From positions 1-50,093 of IMG/VR virus record IMGVR_UViG_3300047557_002037: a stretch of 50,093 nucleotides of DNA; one strand, given 5' to 3'. The position numbers and the translations under genes were made by a program. This document shows, piece by piece, positions 1,479-9,471 of this stretch. Origin of the DNA: a virus. Numbering within the stretch: position 1 is the stretch's first letter; each line of letters opens with the position of its first letter. The notes beneath the pieces are model-generated. The model worked only from the letters and a program-made list of their open reading frames with translations, had not been told where the DNA came from and did no database searches.

Positions 1479-2663
1479 ATGGCTAAGGCAACTACCAAAA
1501 CTCGTGTAACCAAAAAGCATGTTGCAGAACATCGCTCTAAGTCTCAACGTGATCTAAGTCCCAAATGGGACGGTCACGAATCTTGGTCCACCGATGAGTT
1601 TTATCGCCATTTTCGTCATTCAATGGATTACTATCGTTTGGAATTCAACGGTCGTGATCTCAAGCCCAAAGTCATAAATTGGATGGGTGTCAACGGTTAT
1701 ACCAAGGAGCAAATCAAGGCATTCAAAGATACCAAAGACTTCCGTTGTAATACTACAATGGGCTCTATCGCAGCCAATCTACTTCGAGGTATGCCTCCTG
1801 TACGTGCAGACTTCAATGAAGGTCGTAATACTGCCCAATGGCTGGGTCAACAGATCGCTAAAATTCTAGAAGACGGTAAAGATGACTACGAACCCGAAGT
1901 GACTGAAGAAAAAGTCGCTGTTCCTGCTGTATCTATTCAAGAACGTGTTCGTGAAGCCACTTTTGGAATGACCGAGGAAATCGAAGATACTATCGATTCG
2001 TTCTCACGTGATCCAGAATCTTTCGATCCCAAAGCATTTAAAATTCTAAATCTTTTGCGAGGAAAGCAAGCCAAAGCCGCACACGCTCGCATCATCAAAG
2101 ACTTTTATCAGCGACAACATGACGAATACATTGAGCTTCAAGAAGGCAAATGTGATCAACTCAAAGAAGCATATAGTCATTTGAGCAAAGCTCAAGTTAA
2201 GAAAATCGTTGCTTTCTATCAAGAGATTTTGAGCGCCTGCGATATGCTGATGCAAGAAGCTAAGATTAATCGCAAGCCACGTGTTAAGAAGTCTAAACCC
2301 GTTGAGAAGATCGTCGAGAAACTCAAATATATGAAACAGGACGACAAGCTGAAATTGGTTTCTATTAGCCCTGCTGACATCGTGGGTGCTAAAGAACTGT
2401 GGGTTTTCAATGTAAAAACTCGCAAGCTGGGCAAATATGTTGCAGGTGAGTTTAACGATCTCGGCGTCAAAGGCACTAGTGTTACTGGTTTTGATGAGAT
2501 TAAATCCGTGCAAAAGACCCTACGCAAACCAGAAGAACAGCTCAAAGAGTTCAAGGCTGCGGGCAAAGTAGCTCTACGCAAGTTTCTTGAGGATATTAAA
2601 GCAGTAGATATCAAACTCAACGGACGTATCAACGAAGATACTATCCTTTTAAAAGTACAATAA
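1479..2663 (+). CDS. Conserved 394-residue phage protein of unknown function
   Basis: The start is well defined by AGGAG seven nt upstream. The N-terminus is basic (MAKATTKTRVTKKHVAEHRS). A middle region with W-D-G-H-E-S-W and R-H-F-R-H-S-M-D-Y-Y segments is followed by helical, lysine-rich sequence (about residues 180-280). The C-terminal third has a short strand-rich part containing VSISPADIVGAKELWVFNV. It resembles proteins common in aquatic T4-like phages that lack a known role. The sigma-70 promoter upstream points to early expression and the terminator downstream makes it a single-gene transcription unit. A nucleic-acid-binding role is possible but unproven. Confidence 0.75.
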   Translation: MAKATTKTRVTKKHVAEHRSKSQRDLSPKWDGHESWSTDEFYRHFRHSMDYYRLEFNGRDLKPKVINWMGVNGYTKEQIKAFKDTKDFRCNTTMGSIAANLLRGMPPVRADFNEGRNTAQWLGQQIAKILEDGKDDYEPEVTEEKVAVPAVSIQERVREATFGMTEEIEDTIDSFSRDPESFDPKAFKILNLLRGKQAKAAHARIIKDFYQRQHDEYIELQEGKCDQLKEAYSHLSKAQVKKIVAFYQEILSACDMLMQEAKINRKPRVKKSKPVEKIVEKLKYMKQDDKLKLVSISPADIVGAKELWVFNVKTRKLGKYVAGEFNDLGVKGTSVTGFDEIKSVQKTLRKPEEQLKEFKAAGKVALRKFLEDIKAVDIKLNGRINEDTILLKVQ

Positions 2664-2680
2664 CATAGTAAATTTACAGT

Positions 2681-2707
2681 AAAAAGCAGGCTTCGGCCTG
2701 CTTTTTT
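2681..2707 (+). terminator. Strong intrinsic terminator with a TTCG loop
   Basis: The stem GCAGGC (2686-2691) and GCCTGC (2696-2701) closes a TTCG tetraloop. It is flanked by five A residues upstream and six T residues (2702-2707) downstream that extend the stem and form the U-tract. It ends the transcription unit of the gene at 1479 and lies just before a late-promoter box. Confidence 0.95.
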
Positions 2708-2714
2708 ATTGGCT

Positions 2715-2723
2715 GATAAATAC
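2715..2723 (+). promoter_or_regulatory. T4-like late promoter box (GATAAATAC)
   Basis: GATAAATAC matches the T4 late -10 element. The last A of TAAATA is at 2722 and the ATG of the next gene is at 2730, so the predicted start lies 0-2 nt before the start codon. It directly follows the terminator, as expected for a new late unit. Confidence 0.7.
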
Positions 2724-2729
2724 TTAACT

Positions 2730-3830
2730 ATGAGTAAAAACAATATCGATCAAGCATTGGCAGCACTTGCAGATGCTCTTAAAGGGATTGAACTTAACAG
2801 TTCATTAGACTACAAAGAAATAGCTCGCAAGTTTCCACTGCGGTCACTGAGCGGTGATCACATCAATGGCGGTAAAATACAAAACTTCGCCAGTGCCGGT
2901 ATCGCTGATTTATCAACAAACACACAATTAACCATAACTAATGATGGTGTACATGTGACTAATTTAAAAGTTGATAATTTAGAAAAGCTGTCAGTCAGTG
3001 GAACTATTAAAGCAAAAACTTTAGAAGTAGACGAATTAAAAGCAGAAATAAAATTTGAAAAAGATCAACCTATAGTTTTTTCTAGTGATAATTTAGAAGG
3101 TAAAGGATTACTTTGGTCCGGTAAAGGAAACACCAAACAATTTATTTTTGCATCAAATCCAGATAGATTTTTTGTATCAGAAAATATCGATTTTGCTCGC
3201 GGAAAAAGTATCAGCATTAATAACATAAAACTAATCGACGAAAAAGAATTAGGACCAACTATTATTAAAAGTAGTTTACAACAGGTAGGTCGATTAAAAG
3301 GATTGATAGTCGATGGTGATTTAACATTAGATCAATACATAGTCTATAATAGTTCAACCAATAGATTAGGCTTAGGTACCGAAGATCCCAATGCTGCCCT
3401 TAGCATCGCCGAAGACGGAATTGAAGTAATCGTTGGAACAAAAAACAGTGTAAGAGGTTTTATAGGCACACATGCCAGCAACGATTTTGATATAGTAACA
3501 GATAACACTGCAAGAATATCTATAAGTTCTAGTGGAAATATCACATTAGGAAATACTAAAATATCTCCAGTGCAAATCTCCGTTCACGGTAAAATGGCTA
3601 TTAAAGTATCTACTCCGGACCCAGAAGTAGATCTTCATGTCAATGGTTCCGTAAAATTTAATAACAGATTACAGAAAGTTGACAGATCATATCCCAGCAG
3701 TGGATCATATAATGCCGGTGATATCGTATGGAATTCTGAACCTAGGATTAATCAATATGTAGGTTGGATTTGTGTACAAGCAGGTAGTCCCGGAATTTGG
3801 GAACCTTTTGGTAAAATTGGAAATTCTTAA
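2730..3830 (+). CDS. Tail fibre or spike-like virion protein, first of a tandem pair
   Basis: I chose the ATG at 2730 (366 residues) because the alternative TTG at 2709 lies inside the terminator and late-promoter region. The N-terminal part is unique and strand-rich. From about residue 125 on it is closely similar to the next gene, sharing ASNPDRFFVSENID-type and EKELGPT motifs, NRLGLGTEDP and a DNTARISI strand. The C-terminus carries the aromatic motif GDIVWN...YVGWIC..AGSPG.W, common at the tips of phage tail proteins. A virion structural, probably receptor-facing, role is inferred from this and the late promoter. Confidence 0.75.
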   Translation: MSKNNIDQALAALADALKGIELNSSLDYKEIARKFPLRSLSGDHINGGKIQNFASAGIADLSTNTQLTITNDGVHVTNLKVDNLEKLSVSGTIKAKTLEVDELKAEIKFEKDQPIVFSSDNLEGKGLLWSGKGNTKQFIFASNPDRFFVSENIDFARGKSISINNIKLIDEKELGPTIIKSSLQQVGRLKGLIVDGDLTLDQYIVYNSSTNRLGLGTEDPNAALSIAEDGIEVIVGTKNSVRGFIGTHASNDFDIVTDNTARISISSSGNITLGNTKISPVQISVHGKMAIKVSTPDPEVDLHVNGSVKFNNRLQKVDRSYPSSGSYNAGDIVWNSEPRINQYVGWICVQAGSPGIWEPFGKIGNS

Positions 3831-4675: not shown

Positions 4676-5271
4676 TGTCCAAAGCCTTGGTGATCGGTAA
4701 CGGCGAAAGTCGTAAATCTATCGATATTGAAAAATATAGAAACACTCATACACTAATAGGATGTAATGCTCTACATCGAGATATTGTTGTAGATCATCTT
4801 ATCTGTTGTGATCGAAGGATGGTTGCAGAAGCCGTCGAAAATCCTCAAACTAAAAATACATTGATCTATGTAAGACCTCATTGGTTTCATTTCTTTCGAA
4901 AAATCAAAAAGAATAAAAACATAAAAGTCGTTCCCGAGCTTCCTTTCAAAGGAGAATCAAAAAAAGATGACCCTGAACATTGGGGCAGCGGTTGTTTCGC
5001 TGTGCTATTGGCAGCTTCTTCGGATGTCGAAGAAATCGAATTAATAGGCTTTGATTTGTATCCTATCGATAAATCAGTGAACAACATATACAAAGGCACA
5101 TCAAATTATTCTAGAATCGATTCGCAACCAGTTGATCCATCATATTGGATATACCAAATTGGAAGAATTTTTCAAAATTATCCTAGTAAAAAATTTATCA
5201 TAAGAAATAAAGATTCATGGAACGTACCCGAAGAATGGAGAAAAAATAACGTCCTCTTCGTTGCATTATAA
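4675..5271 (+). CDS. Rossmann-like protein, DUF115/glycosyltransferase-like
   Basis: This 198-residue protein starts with ALVIGNGESRKSIDI, a nucleotide-binding-like Rossmann start seen in phage DUF115 (MptE-like) proteins and some sugar transferases. A central EHWGSGCFAVLLAA helix and an E-I-E-L-I-G-F-D-L-Y segment fit the same fold. The start overlaps the upstream stop by one base (TAATG). Its position before kdsA and a glycosyltransferase makes a role in glycan metabolism plausible. The exact reaction cannot be read from the sequence. Confidence 0.6.
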   Translation: MSKALVIGNGESRKSIDIEKYRNTHTLIGCNALHRDIVVDHLICCDRRMVAEAVENPQTKNTLIYVRPHWFHFFRKIKKNKNIKVVPELPFKGESKKDDPEHWGSGCFAVLLAASSDVEEIELIGFDLYPIDKSVNNIYKGTSNYSRIDSQPVDPSYWIYQIGRIFQNYPSKKFIIRNKDSWNVPEEWRKNNVLFVAL

Positions 5272-5275
5272 ATAT
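5267..5275 (+). promoter_or_regulatory. Perfect T4-like late promoter (TATAAATAT)
   Basis: TATAAATA at 5267-5274 is the exact T4 late consensus and overlaps the stop codon of the preceding gene. The predicted start near 5280 gives a leader of about 100 nt before the QueD-like gene, and that leader has marked secondary structure. Confidence 0.8.
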
Positions 5276-5297
5276 TCAGGTAGTACAATAGTTCTAT

Positions 5298-5374
5298 AGA
5301 GGACTTAAATGACTTTCAACCCTCTTTAAATATTCTGCAAGTCATCAAACTTACTCGCTTATATGCATAGGAGG
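5298..5374 (+). promoter_or_regulatory. Candidate pseudoknot leader with switchable Shine-Dalgarno
   Basis: AGAGG (5298-5302) can pair with CCTCT (5321-5325). ATGACTT (5309-5315), in the loop of that stem, is exactly complementary to AAGTCAT (5339-5345) downstream. Together they form an H-type pseudoknot of 5 and 7 bp. CCTCT can instead pair with GGAGG (5370-5374), the Shine-Dalgarno of the QueD-like gene, so the two pairings exclude each other. That is the layout of a translational switch. The AGAGG...ACCCTCT part recalls preQ1-I riboswitches, but the loops and tail are longer than that class, so I do not assign it. Complementarity is seen; regulation is inferred. Confidence 0.5.
5309..5329 (+). 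CDS. Possible 6-codon leader ORF (MTFNPL)
   Basis: An ATG at 5309 is preceded by AGAGGA (5298-5303) at a 5-nt spacing and opens a 6-codon frame ending in TAA at 5327-5329. Its Shine-Dalgarno is the 5' strand of the leader stem and its start codon lies inside the second pairing element. Translation would therefore disrupt the structure. It may be a leader peptide or a chance frame. Confidence 0.3.
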   Translation: MTFNPL

Positions 5375-5380
5375 CAAGAG

Positions 5381-5902
5381 ATGGCGAAATATATTTCAAC
5401 TAAAACTTATGGCAATGAACAAGGTCTAAGCTGTTGCTTTAGACAATGGCGTTCAACTCATTCACATTGCTCATTACTTCATGGTTACTCAATTGGTGTT
5501 CGAGCACAGTTCGAAAGTGAAACACTAGATGATCGTAATTGGGTCATGGACTTTGGCGGGCTTAAAGCATTCAAAGCATGGCTTGAATATATGTTTGATC
5601 ATACTTTGGTAATCGCAGAAGATGATCCTTACTTAGATATCTTTAGAGGTATGGCGGCATATGGTCTTCAAGATCGTGGTGGCATGTGTGATTTACGAAT
5701 TGTACCGGCTGTTGGCTGTGAAAAGTTTTCAGAATTAGCTTTTAAAGAATTAGATAAGATCGTTAAAACATTCCAAGCAGGAGAAAGCTATACTGTAAAT
5801 GATAAAACTTTCGAATGTCGTTATCCAGTAGGCCAAGGTGTACGTGTTCGTTCGGTAGAAGTATTTGAGCACGGAGCTAACTCCGCAATCTACGAAGCCT
5901 AA
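5381..5902 (+). CDS. queD: QueD-like 6-pyruvoyl/6-carboxytetrahydropterin synthase family protein
   Basis: The start at 5381 is fixed by AGGAGG (5369-5374) six nt upstream and gives 173 residues. Typical family elements are the Cys-x3-His-Gly segment (C30, H34 in SHCSLLHGY), MDFGGLK, FDHTLVIAEDDP, GCEKFSE and the VEVFEHGANSA end. QueD makes carboxy-tetrahydropterin on the way to preQ0 and queuosine. However, two of the three zinc-binding histidines seem replaced: the usual A-A-H is C-C-F (F20), and His-Gly-His is His-Gly-Tyr (Y36). This matches a divergent phage branch, so the activity is uncertain. No queC, queE or folE lies in the window. It is probably expressed late through the structured leader. 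Confidence 0.75.
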   Translation: MAKYISTKTYGNEQGLSCCFRQWRSTHSHCSLLHGYSIGVRAQFESETLDDRNWVMDFGGLKAFKAWLEYMFDHTLVIAEDDPYLDIFRGMAAYGLQDRGGMCDLRIVPAVGCEKFSELAFKELDKIVKTFQAGESYTVNDKTFECRYPVGQGVRVRSVEVFEHGANSAIYEA

Positions 5903-5903
5903 A

Positions 5904-5939
5904 AAAATGTACGCATAAATAATAATATGCGTACATTTT
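5904..5939 (+). promoter_or_regulatory. 13-bp hairpin burying the kdsA start codon
   Basis: Bases 5904-5916 and 5927-5939 are perfectly complementary over 13 bp and enclose a 10-nt AT loop (5917-5926). The 3' arm begins with the kdsA ATG and ends in TTTT. On a read-through transcript the start codon would be sequestered, and the hairpin could also weakly terminate the QueD-gene transcript. A late-promoter box spans the loop. Confidence 0.75.
5914..5922 (+). promoter_or_regulatory. T4-like late promoter box (CATAAATAA) inside the kdsA hairpin
   Basis: The last A of TAAATA is at 5921, so the expected start is at 5927, the A of the kdsA ATG. A transcript from here would lack the 5' arm of the hairpin and have a free start codon. 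Confidence 0.6.
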
Positions 5940-6757
5940 CAATCAATCGAATATTAGCCAGCAACGAAAATAAAATCTTTCTTATTGCTGGCCCCTGTCA
6001 GATAGAAAGTCAAGACCATTCCGAGTTTATGGCAGGTAGTATTAAAGAAATCTGCGATAGTCTAGACGTAGATTTGATTTATAAAAGCAGTTTTGATAAA
6101 GCCAATCGTTCGAGCATCAATACCAAACGAGGTATAGGTATAGACGAAGGATTAAAAATTCTTAACGGTATCAAACATGAATTTGGTATCCCTGTATTGA
6201 CTGACATACATGAAAACTATCAAGCCGGGCTAGTAGCCGATGCCGGCATAGACGTTATACAAATTCCTGCCTTTTTATGTCGCCAGACTGATTTATTATT
6301 GGCCGCTGGTCAAACAGGATGTGTGGTCAATGTTAAAAAAGGTCAATTTCTTGCACCTCACGATATGAAAAACGTTGCAGCCAAGATTGCTTCAACAGGC
6401 AATGAAAGAATAATGTTATGCGAAAGAGGATATACTCATGGATACAATAATCTTGTGGTCGATATGCGCAGTTTACCTATTATGGCAGATACTGGTTATC
6501 CCGTTATCTTTGATGCCACACATTCTGTTCAGCAGCCTGGAGGATTGGGATCGGTCAGTGGCGGAGACCGCGAAATGGTACCCTACCTGGCGAGGGCTGC
6601 TATAGCCACGGGGTGTTTAGCGGGTGTGTTTATAGAAACACATCAAGATCCCGATAATGCACCTTCAGATGGTCCTAACATGGTTAGGTTAGATAAATTA
6701 AAAAAATTATTAGAAGATTTGGTAACGATAGATGGAATTGTCAAAAGAAGAACGTAA
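5927..6757 (+). CDS. kdsA: 3-deoxy-manno-octulosonate-8-phosphate synthase
   Basis: This full-length 276-residue TIM-barrel enzyme condenses phosphoenolpyruvate with arabinose-5-phosphate to KDO-8-phosphate, a precursor of the LPS inner core. Family motifs are [10 protein letters not shown] (residues 19-28), [64 protein letters not shown] and GGDREMV. Cys24 in GPC matches the metal-binding cysteine of metal-dependent KDO8P synthases, so it is probably of that class. It has no Shine-Dalgarno; the start lies in a hairpin with a late promoter in the loop. It overlaps the following glycosyltransferase by 26 nt. It could modify host LPS or supply a sugar for a virion or host glycan. Confidence 0.95.
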
Positions 6758-7550: not shown

Positions 7551-8576
7551 ATGACTAAACGTATTGGTTTTGCCTGCAAATGGATCGATCGACCTGATCA
7601 AGTAAACGGTATTAAGCCTAAAGATGACTGTAAAAAGTATAATACCGGAAGTACCACTGTTGCTTGGTTAAATAGACAAAGTAGAGACGCAGCCTGTGAG
7701 AAGCTCTGGGATCTGATGAAACAGAACATCGAAAGCTGCCGACTGCTAGTAGAGCGAGTTGGAGAATTAGATGAAGATCTTAGAATGGTACGACTCAGTA
7801 GTGATATCCTTCCTGTATACACTGAGCCAACTTGGAGCTGGTTTTGGCGGACTCCCGATGTCAGATCAGCTTGTGAAAGAGGATTTCAGCAAGTGGGAGA
7901 TGCAGCTCGCTCGCGTGATGTTCGGCTTAGTTTTCATCCTGGTCAGTTTACTGTCCTTGCTAGCGATAACGAAGATATTGTAAATCGTTCAATCGAGGAA
8001 TTCGAATATCACGTGGACATGGCTCGCTGGATGGGGTATGGTAAAACGTTCCAAGACTTTAAAATCAACGTTCACATCGCAGGCCGACGAGGACCCGATG
8101 GTATACGTTCTGCGCTGGCTCGCATGACTCCAGAAGCCCGCAATACATTAACGATCGAGAATGACGAAATTTCGTGGGGTACAGATGCTAGTCTAGAACT
8201 AATCAAAGACTGCGCACTGGTATTAGACATACACCATCATTGGATACACACCGGAGAATATATTGAAGCGAATGACGACCGTGTTAAAAGGATTATTGAT
8301 AGCTGGCGTGGTCAGCGGCCTGTTATACATTATAGTGTTTCACGGGAAGAGCATCTTAATGACCATCCCATCGACACCCTTCCCTCCCTTGATGCGCTAA
8401 TGGAGAGTGGACATAAAAAAGCAAAACTCAGAGCTCATTCAAACTTCTACTGGAACACAGCAGCGAATAAATGGGCACTGAGTTTTAGGGATAACTTCGA
8501 CATCATGTGCGAGAGCAAAGCAAAAAATCTTGCTTCGTTCGCACTCTACGAAGAAGCTAAAAGATTAGGCCTTTGA
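7551..8576 (+). CDS. uvdE: UV damage endonuclease UvdE/UvsE
   Basis: This 341-residue TIM-barrel nuclease cuts 5' to UV photoproducts and some other lesions, starting an alternative excision repair route. Family motifs include RIGFACKW at the N-terminus, MVRLSSDILPVY, RLSFHPGQF, FKINVHIAGRRG, LTIENDE, VLDIHHHWIH and IHYSVSRE. These hold the His, Asp and Glu residues of the metal centre. Length is normal for bacterial homologues. It has an exact-consensus host promoter and probably a leaderless message, so repair would start early in infection. The last 12 nt overlap the convergent - strand gene. Confidence 0.95.
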   Translation: MTKRIGFACKWIDRPDQVNGIKPKDDCKKYNTGSTTVAWLNRQSRDAACEKLWDLMKQNIESCRLLVERVGELDEDLRMVRLSSDILPVYTEPTWSWFWRTPDVRSACERGFQQVGDAARSRDVRLSFHPGQFTVLASDNEDIVNRSIEEFEYHVDMARWMGYGKTFQDFKINVHIAGRRGPDGIRSALARMTPEARNTLTIENDEISWGTDASLELIKDCALVLDIHHHWIHTGEYIEANDDRVKRIIDSWRGQRPVIHYSVSREEHLNDHPIDTLPSLDALMESGHKKAKLRAHSNFYWNTAANKWALSFRDNFDIMCESKAKNLASFALYEEAKRLGL

Positions 8577-8870
8577 TTTCGGCTTACGACCTGCTTTCTT
8601 AGCAACTGCTTCTTTGGCTTTAACTGCGGCTTTCTTAGCACCAGTCTTAGCTTTCTGAGCAACTACTTTAACATCAGCAGCATCAACCTTGCCGTCCTTG
8701 TTAGCGTCGGCAGTGGCTTTAACGCCTTCTACGACATTTTGGACAGCGGCCTTTGCATCGGCAGCATCAACTTTTCCATCTTTGTTTACGTCTAAGCTCT
8801 TAGAGCTGCGATTGTAATAAATGAAAGCGCCAATGACTACTACGGCGATTGCTAAAAGTACGATTTCCAT
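8565..8870 (-). CDS. Membrane-anchored protein with two EF-hand/dockerin-like loops and a lysine-rich tail
   Basis: The start at 8870 is supported by AAGGAG on the - strand (8879-8884), giving 101 residues. Residues 1-20 are a hydrophobic anchor (EIVLLAIAVVVIGAFIYY). Two calcium-loop repeats follow, LDVNKDGKVDAADAKAAVQ and ADANKDGKVDAADVKVVAQ, each with the DxNxDGxxxxxD pattern of EF-hands and dockerin repeats. The last 30 residues are Lys/Ala-rich and histone-like. No holdase, protease or other enzyme domain is present. A late promoter on the - strand (8890-8898) lies upstream. Function unknown; calcium-dependent envelope binding is one possibility. Confidence 0.85.
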   Translation of the reverse strand: MEIVLLAIAVVVIGAFIYYNRSSKSLDVNKDGKVDAADAKAAVQNVVEGVKATADANKDGKVDAADVKVVAQKAKTGAKKAAVKAKEAVAKKAGRKPKSKA

Positions 8871-8889
8871 GGTTAAATCTCCTTGTGGT

Positions 8890-8898
8890 TTATTTAGC
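8890..8898 (-). promoter_or_regulatory. T4-like late promoter box on the minus strand (GCTAAATAA)
   Basis: Read on the - strand the sequence is GCTAAATAA, followed by a short leader with AAGGAG before the ATG at 8870. It lies two nt from a + strand box (8901-8909), making a back-to-back divergent pair. Confidence 0.55.
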
Positions 8899-8900
8899 AG

Positions 8901-8909
8901 GGTAAATAT
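8901..8909 (+). promoter_or_regulatory. T4-like late promoter box (GGTAAATAT) for the superoxide dismutase gene
   Basis: The last A of TAAATA is at 8908, so the expected start is 8914, the A of the dismutase ATG. There is no Shine-Dalgarno in between, so the message is predicted to be leaderless. Confidence 0.6.
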
Positions 8910-8913
8910 AAAC

Positions 8914-9471
8914 ATGCTACATTTTATTAAAAGTCTAACAGAAAACAAAGATAAAAGAGAAATTTACCAAGAAAAACTTAAATTTGGTAAAGATGAACTT
9001 GCACCGGTAATGAGTGAAGATACTCTAAAATACCACTATGACGGCCTCGCTGCCAAGTATTCAGATCGATATAACAAAGGTGAAGGTGATCCGGATTTCA
9101 ATTATGGTGGTGCTATGTTGCACAACATTTTCTTTGCTAACTTGGCCCCGCCCAGAGCAGCTAATAAACCAGAGGGGCTCAGTAAATCTATCATAGATGA
9201 AAAGTATGGAAGTTTTGAAAAATTTAAAGAAGCTGTGGAAAAAGAATTTATGGCAGCTCAAGGATCCAATTGGATCTATATGGATACCAGTGGCACACTG
9301 CACACGATACATAATCACGAATATAAAAAGACGATGAAAATCTCTTTATTGATAGATGCTTGGGAGCATGCATGGGCATTAGATTATCAACAGGACAAAG
9401 CAAAATACTTAAATAATATTTGGAGAATCATCAACTGGGAAGTTGTTGACATCCGTTTACAAGGAGCGTAA
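8914..9471 (+). CDS. Fe/Mn superoxide dismutase
   Basis: I chose the ATG at 8914 (185 residues) because the longer frame covers the divergent promoters and the start of the opposite gene. All four metal ligands of the Fe/Mn family are visible: H41 (LKYHYDGL), H70 (MLHNIFF), and D148 and H152 (DAWEHAW). The gateway Tyr is kept (Y49), but the usual second-sphere His-His of the KHHQxY motif is replaced by Leu-Ala-Ala. The position of the metal-tuning Gln appears to be His (THTIHNHE region). The enzyme should convert superoxide to peroxide and oxygen; metal preference cannot be told. It lies directly upstream of the Fe-S assembly genes. Confidence 0.9.
   Translation: MLHFIKSLTENKDKREIYQEKLKFGKDELAPVMSEDTLKYHYDGLAAKYSDRYNKGEGDPDFNYGGAMLHNIFFANLAPPRAANKPEGLSKSIIDEKYGSFEKFKEAVEKEFMAAQGSNWIYMDTSGTLHTIHNHEYKKTMKISLLIDAWEHAWALDYQQDKAKYLNNIWRIINWEVVDIRLQGA

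Follow-up and report, generated by a model that had tools for sequence, protein, structure and literature searches.

The queD leader in the window

The window analysed here is a 50-kb IMG/VR virus record of 50,093 nt. It is a fragment in which QueD is the only protein of the 7-deazaguanine pathway present. The product of the queD-like gene matched phrog_2389 (E 2.5e-34), PF01242 (E 1.7e-13) and TIGR03367 (E 3.8e-9, under the curated cut-off). Cellular QueD has AAHR and HGH at its zinc-ligand positions. The QueD proteins of the window and of the related loci L088 and L128 have AYRQ and HGY, so that two of the usual zinc-ligand histidines are seemingly missing, and the Cys is kept. Just 3' of queD, an inverted repeat (GTACGCATA/TATGCGTAC) followed by ATTTTC at positions 5909-5938 is a possible terminator. 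Downstream of queD are genes for a DAHP/KDO-8-P synthase-type enzyme (5927-6757), the UV endonuclease UvdE (7551-8576) and an Fe/Mn superoxide dismutase (8821-9471).

The leader of queD can be folded into an H-type pseudoknot with stems P1 and P2 and three loops (Table 1). Re-reading of P1, P2, loop 3 and the Shine-Dalgarno (SD) sequence showed that every coordinate of the original prediction was right, including those of a 13-nt third loop, which had been described as longer than that of preQ1-I riboswitches. Comparison with relatives suggests that U5316 lies opposite C5338 and that C5317-G5337 and A5318-U5336 prolong P2. The loop 3 consensus was N-U-A-H-A-N-A-Y-UCUGC, and C5320 is a candidate specificity base.

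Table 1. Features of the queD leader, with positions in the window and the basis of each assignment
Feature	Position	Strand	Basis or remark
Sigma70-type promoter, TTGCAT - 17 nt - TACAAT	5261-5289	+	Sequence
P1 5' strand, AGAGG	5298-5302	+	Sequence; co-varies with 5321-5325
Loop 1	5303-5308	+	Conserved N-C-U start
P2 5' strand, ATGACTT	5309-5315	+	All 7 P2 pairs change on both sides
Loop 2, UCAAC (UCANC)	5316-5320	+	Comparison of relatives
P1 3' strand, CCTCT	5321-5325	+	Co-variation with P1 5' strand
Loop 3, TTAAATATTCTGC	5326-5338	+	13 nt; crosses P1
P2 3' strand, AAGTCAT, plus C5346; proposed switching strand	5339-5346	+	Pairs with 5309-5315 (5339-5345 is its exact reverse complement) or with start-codon region
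Alternative hairpin over SD and start codon	5341-5385	+	Predicted fold, -10.8 kcal/mol
SD, GGAGG	5370-5374	+	Sequence
queD-like gene (6-carboxytetrahydropterin synthase family)	5381-5902	+	Domain matches; start codon ATG 5381-5383

The predicted transcription start, about 5296-5298, falls on the first base of P1. A sigma70-type promoter was recognised in 48 of 157 distinct upstream regions of relatives (shuffled regions: mean 9.6, maximum 15), and the end of the -10 box was found most often 7 nt 5' of P1, which indicates that the RNA begins at the putative aptamer. An exact match to a T4-type late promoter (TATAAATA, 5267-5274) was rejected; the motif was not enriched in the window (2 occurrences against 5.3 expected), its distance to P1 was not fixed in relatives, and the sigma70-type promoter fitted better.

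Occurrence and co-variation of the element

A QueD search yielded 80 viral loci, most of which carried the same element 50-80 nt upstream of the start codon. A pattern built from loop 2 and loop 3, which left the P1 5' strand outside, was scanned over IMG/VR. All of the viral matches, at least 178, had a P1 partner with GG-N-CU, and they contained at least 126 distinct cores. QueD was the first gene after the element in 155 of the 159 distinct elements among the matches listed; in L157 and L168 it was second in the operon, behind one extra ORF, and in L185 and L273 the sequence ended before a downstream gene long enough for identification. Judged by sequence comparison, the same knotted RNA is located directly before queD in hundreds of uncultured phages. 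L025 has two adjacent queD-like genes (2495-3522), with the element before the first only.

The QueD proteins encoded below the element showed as little as 30% identity to that of the window, while the unpaired bases UCANC and UA.A.A.UCUGC, which were in the search pattern, remained fixed. The loop bases of the cores are partly fixed by that pattern, a bias that protein-based searches reduce and do not remove; the pattern-free QueD-based searches recovered mostly the same loop bases. Among the matches listed, the second base of loop 1 was C in all 120 cores with a loop 1 of at least 2 nt. The base directly 5' of the P1 3' strand was C in 126 of 126 listed cores, being fixed in the pattern, and was also kept in the QueD-found leaders; the base before it was U in 93, C in 20 and A in 13 of those listed.

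A covariance model with P1 as its only stem, built without the L017 class, gave one strong match per record in 21 of 22 phage records, at 47-64 bits against a background of up to 18. It also recovered the L017 class at 22-25 bits, together with many more divergent members. A divergent version was present at 1400-1500 of L424, a 350-kb phage record, with P1 TGTGG/CCACA and P2 GCAGC/GCTGC. The scan of bacterial genomes with a similar pattern returned nearly all chance matches; the three real ones (L226, L273 and L260), in two MAGs, look like phage contigs. So far the element appears confined to phages. It was absent from the cultured-phage QueD loci examined (L338-L344), and the window leader used as a query found no convincing relative among named phages.

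The folding energy of the single window leader was unremarkable (z -0.07), and the case for the pseudoknot therefore rests on comparison. For 70 aligned relatives the covariation score was 0.506, compared with 0.157 for shuffled alignments and at most 0.118 with the partners slid. In 86 distinct P1/P2 cores, P2 paired in 70% of cells, compared with 48% when strands were permuted (maximum of 1000 permutations, 54%) and 29-44% when they were slid, it being understood that permutation tests run without a tree overstate significance. We also counted phylogenetic contrasts, using a quickly built QueD tree with 151 rows; they are approximate, as leaders may recombine relative to queD. Co-variation was seen in all 14 independent contrasts for P1 pair 3 (p 1.2e-4); for P2 the figures were about 16 of 18 at pair 5 (p 3e-5), about 15 of 17 at pair 6 (p 6e-5) and about 9 of 10 at pair 7 with C-G.

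Compensatory changes in homologous leaders, whose absence the original prediction had named as part of its refutation, were found at all P2 positions and at two of the five P1 pairs. P1 pair 3 was CG, AU or UA with zero broken cases, and pairs 4 and 5 were GC in 126 of 126 cores among the matches listed. Within the P2 extension, C-G was replaced by A-U in the L017 class, and A-U by G-C in L355, L374, L376 and L385. The fourth base of loop 3 was C or U when P1 pair 3 was C-G and A when it was A-U or U-A, with no exception and in 14 of 14 contrasts. A loop 3 placed in the groove of P1, as it is in preQ1-I, would be expected to show such coupling. In L384 a shorter P1 went along with a shorter loop 3. 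Comparison of the relatives thus supports the H-type pseudoknot that had been predicted for the leader, along with its P2 extension, the coupling of loop 3 to P1 and the association with queD.

Predicted alternative pairing with the start site

In folding of 146 elements, a mean fraction of 0.72 of the P2 3' strand paired with the SD-AUG region, compared with 0.54 when the strand was exchanged for that of another element and 0.37 for shuffled sequences, and the value exceeded 0.4 in 99% of the elements. The sequences involved differ between classes, yet they match each time: GTCATC/GATGGC in the window, AAGTCATC/GATGACTT in L093, GCCATTG/CAATGGC in L088, ACCATAT/ATATGGT in L017, GTCATCTT/AAGATGGC in L111, CTCTATT/AATAGAG in L200 and, at the SD, CCTATG/CATAGG in L003. 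The base 3' of P2 and the base 5' of AUG changed together in about 6 of 6 contrasts (p 0.03), only six being independent. By sequence comparison, the P2 3' strand co-varies with the start site. Little start-site pairing was predicted in a few members (L132, L260). In L424, inspection by eye suggests that the strand complementary to the start region is the 5' strand of P1 and not P2, which would follow the same logic.

The window leader had originally been read as a translational switch in which the P1 3' strand, CCTCT, masks the SD. The leader pseudoknot with an alternative at the start site is retained in our model, with a different switching strand. Pairing of the P1 3' strand with the SD was not conserved: 72 of 105 distinct cases had at most two contiguous pairs, and only P1 stems of the CCTCT type are able to form it. 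As a conserved anti-SD this strand was ruled out, the conserved partner of the start codon and ribosome-binding site (RBS) being the P2 3' strand. In the window the predicted fold pairs 5341-5346 with 5380-5385, 5350-5352 with 5376-5378 and 5354-5356 with 5371-5373. The pseudoknot and this hairpin share one strand, and formation of the knot should therefore free the start site, which would make the switch ON. The mutual exclusion of expression platform and aptamer is a prediction, and the ON logic derives from that predicted competition.

In the CCTATG class (L003, L035, L085 and similar members), TGCTATAAT is often present in the loop of the RBS hairpin, and TTTACA lies 18 nt upstream of it. 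The two resemble a complete promoter within the element; in other members the loop is variable.

Pathway context and possible function

FolE and QueE were both encoded in 20 of 20 large phage records (G001-G020, including L030, L034 and L066), QueE with the hallmark QGEG...CNFKC. No TGT-family protein was detected in these 20 records, and a DpdA query, run without a positive control, gave no match in them. No convincing QueC was found in the 20 records either; domain matches were weak, with two records over the cut-off and about 60 residues covered. With neither QueC nor TGT recognised, these phages have no recognised means of making preQ0/preQ1 themselves or of using these compounds. The phage pathway seems to stop at 7-carboxy-7-deazaguanine, which is likely its product. 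A phosphoribosyltransferase was encoded near FolE in the loci examined and may form the nucleotide.

The shape of the knot shifts in step with the start site, and the element is therefore probably an undescribed metabolite-sensing switch that turns queD on. We favour, with moderate confidence, a cis-regulatory RNA of this kind: most likely a riboswitch that represents an undescribed class, is restricted to a large group of uncultured phages and has a guanine-like ligand from the pathway, with ON control of queD. Ligand binding, the identity of the ligand and the sign of regulation are inferred. Transcription would begin at P1, and the nascent RNA would fold into an H-type pseudoknot with a 5-bp P1 and a P2 of up to 7 bp followed by a U.C mismatch and two more pairs, in which loop 2 joins the final bases of loop 3; loop 3 itself would run alongside P1. 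The two stems would flank a pocket, delimited by G5302-C5321, C5320, loop 1 and loop 3, for a small molecule, probably with a guanine-like face and from the 7-deazaguanine/pterin pathway, such as 7-carboxy-7-deazaguanine, preQ0/preQ1 or dihydroneopterin triphosphate. When the ligand is absent, the P2 3' strand would re-pair with the start codon and SD and block translation; when it is present, the strand would be kept in P2, the start site would be free and QueD would be made. ON control of a biosynthetic gene is unusual unless a precursor is sensed, which speaks against this sign. It is possible, and we propose it tentatively, that a phage-only riboswitch senses a 7-deazaguanine or its pterin precursor and turns QueD on, the phage thereby adjusting how much modified guanine is made to conditions in the infected cell. 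Such a switch would be the first of the ON type among riboswitches of the 7-deazaguanine pathway, and its aptamer might be the first one for 7-carboxy-7-deazaguanine or dihydroneopterin triphosphate.

No earlier description of the motif was found in the open-access literature searched, and Rfam 15 gave no match. If the favoured reading is true, it would add a riboswitch class that is widespread and almost confined to uncultured phages. A P2 3' strand tuned to the start codon would make a compact strand-exchange switch. It would also link RNA sensing to phage synthesis of 7-deazaguanines, which shield phage DNA from restriction (PMC6884629).

Three other explanations were weighed. The element could be a divergent preQ1-I riboswitch (RF00522, which comprises types I, II and III): with preQ1 or preQ0 bound, the pseudoknot would hinder the ribosome, giving feedback repression of queD. 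In keeping with the resemblance noted in the original prediction, the element shares several features of preQ1-I (PMC11625349, PMC10622847): the H-type topology, a 5-bp P1 closed by an invariant G-C (the G5-C18 pair at the pocket edge), a C immediately preceding the P1 3' strand (in preQ1-I the specificity C, which follows a U or A), an A-rich loop 3 contacting P1 and a queuosine/7-deazaguanine-pathway gene downstream. Furthermore, repression without SD masking is also possible for a pseudoknot close to the RBS, as reported for Can preQ1-I (PMC11625349), which counts against the ON logic. We nevertheless consider this explanation unlikely. RF00522 matched neither the window, even at E up to 10, nor 10 relatives nor the element positions of the 20 large records, using a model that passed its cut-off in 1 of 14 control genomes. 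The base corresponding to U6 of preQ1-I, the first of loop 1, is unconserved (A 45, T 41, C 40). Loop 3 of preQ1-I ends in A (A29/A30, a ligand contact), whereas here the A-rich first part is kept and the end is YUCUGC; loop 3 is longer, its conserved UCUGC prolongs P2, and P2 is longer and freely variable. The first SD bases are part of P2 itself in translational preQ1-I switches, whereas here the P2 3' strand would act as an anti-start strand. That neither QueC nor TGT was recognised in these phages also argues against this explanation. The preQ1 riboswitches in the table of a review all repress (PMC11625349); preQ1-I is OFF, whereas the phage element is predicted to be ON. The element may function as a preQ1-I aptamer does, except for an inverted output; it was not filed as a member, and the two offer a natural comparison of a similar scaffold with opposite predicted output. 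PreQ1-II (RF01054) and preQ1-III (RF02680) are likewise pseudoknots that govern queuosine-pathway genes via RBS access; they have an HLout topology with extra stems, and neither matched the element, the window leader having matched no Rfam family at all.

A protein operator, to which QueD or another phage protein would bind and autoregulate its translation, is rather improbable. The near-exclusive association with queD and the phage setting would suit it, by analogy with T4 gene 32, where gp32 binds a pseudoknot in its own leader to control translation. The gene 32 leader is not known to contain an invariant pocket or a comparable alternative hairpin at the start site. An RNA core that stays fixed across such divergent QueD proteins speaks against an operator, and fixed loop bases beside a base-paired cavity resemble a small-molecule pocket. 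Very doubtful, in our estimation, is a ligand-free structural leader serving as a 5' stabiliser, an RNA thermometer or a fixed translation attenuator. The ordinary single-sequence folding agrees with it, and the RBS hairpin could by itself be enough to keep translation low; a simple stabiliser or thermometer, however, needs neither mutually exclusive, co-varying pairings nor invariant unpaired bases.
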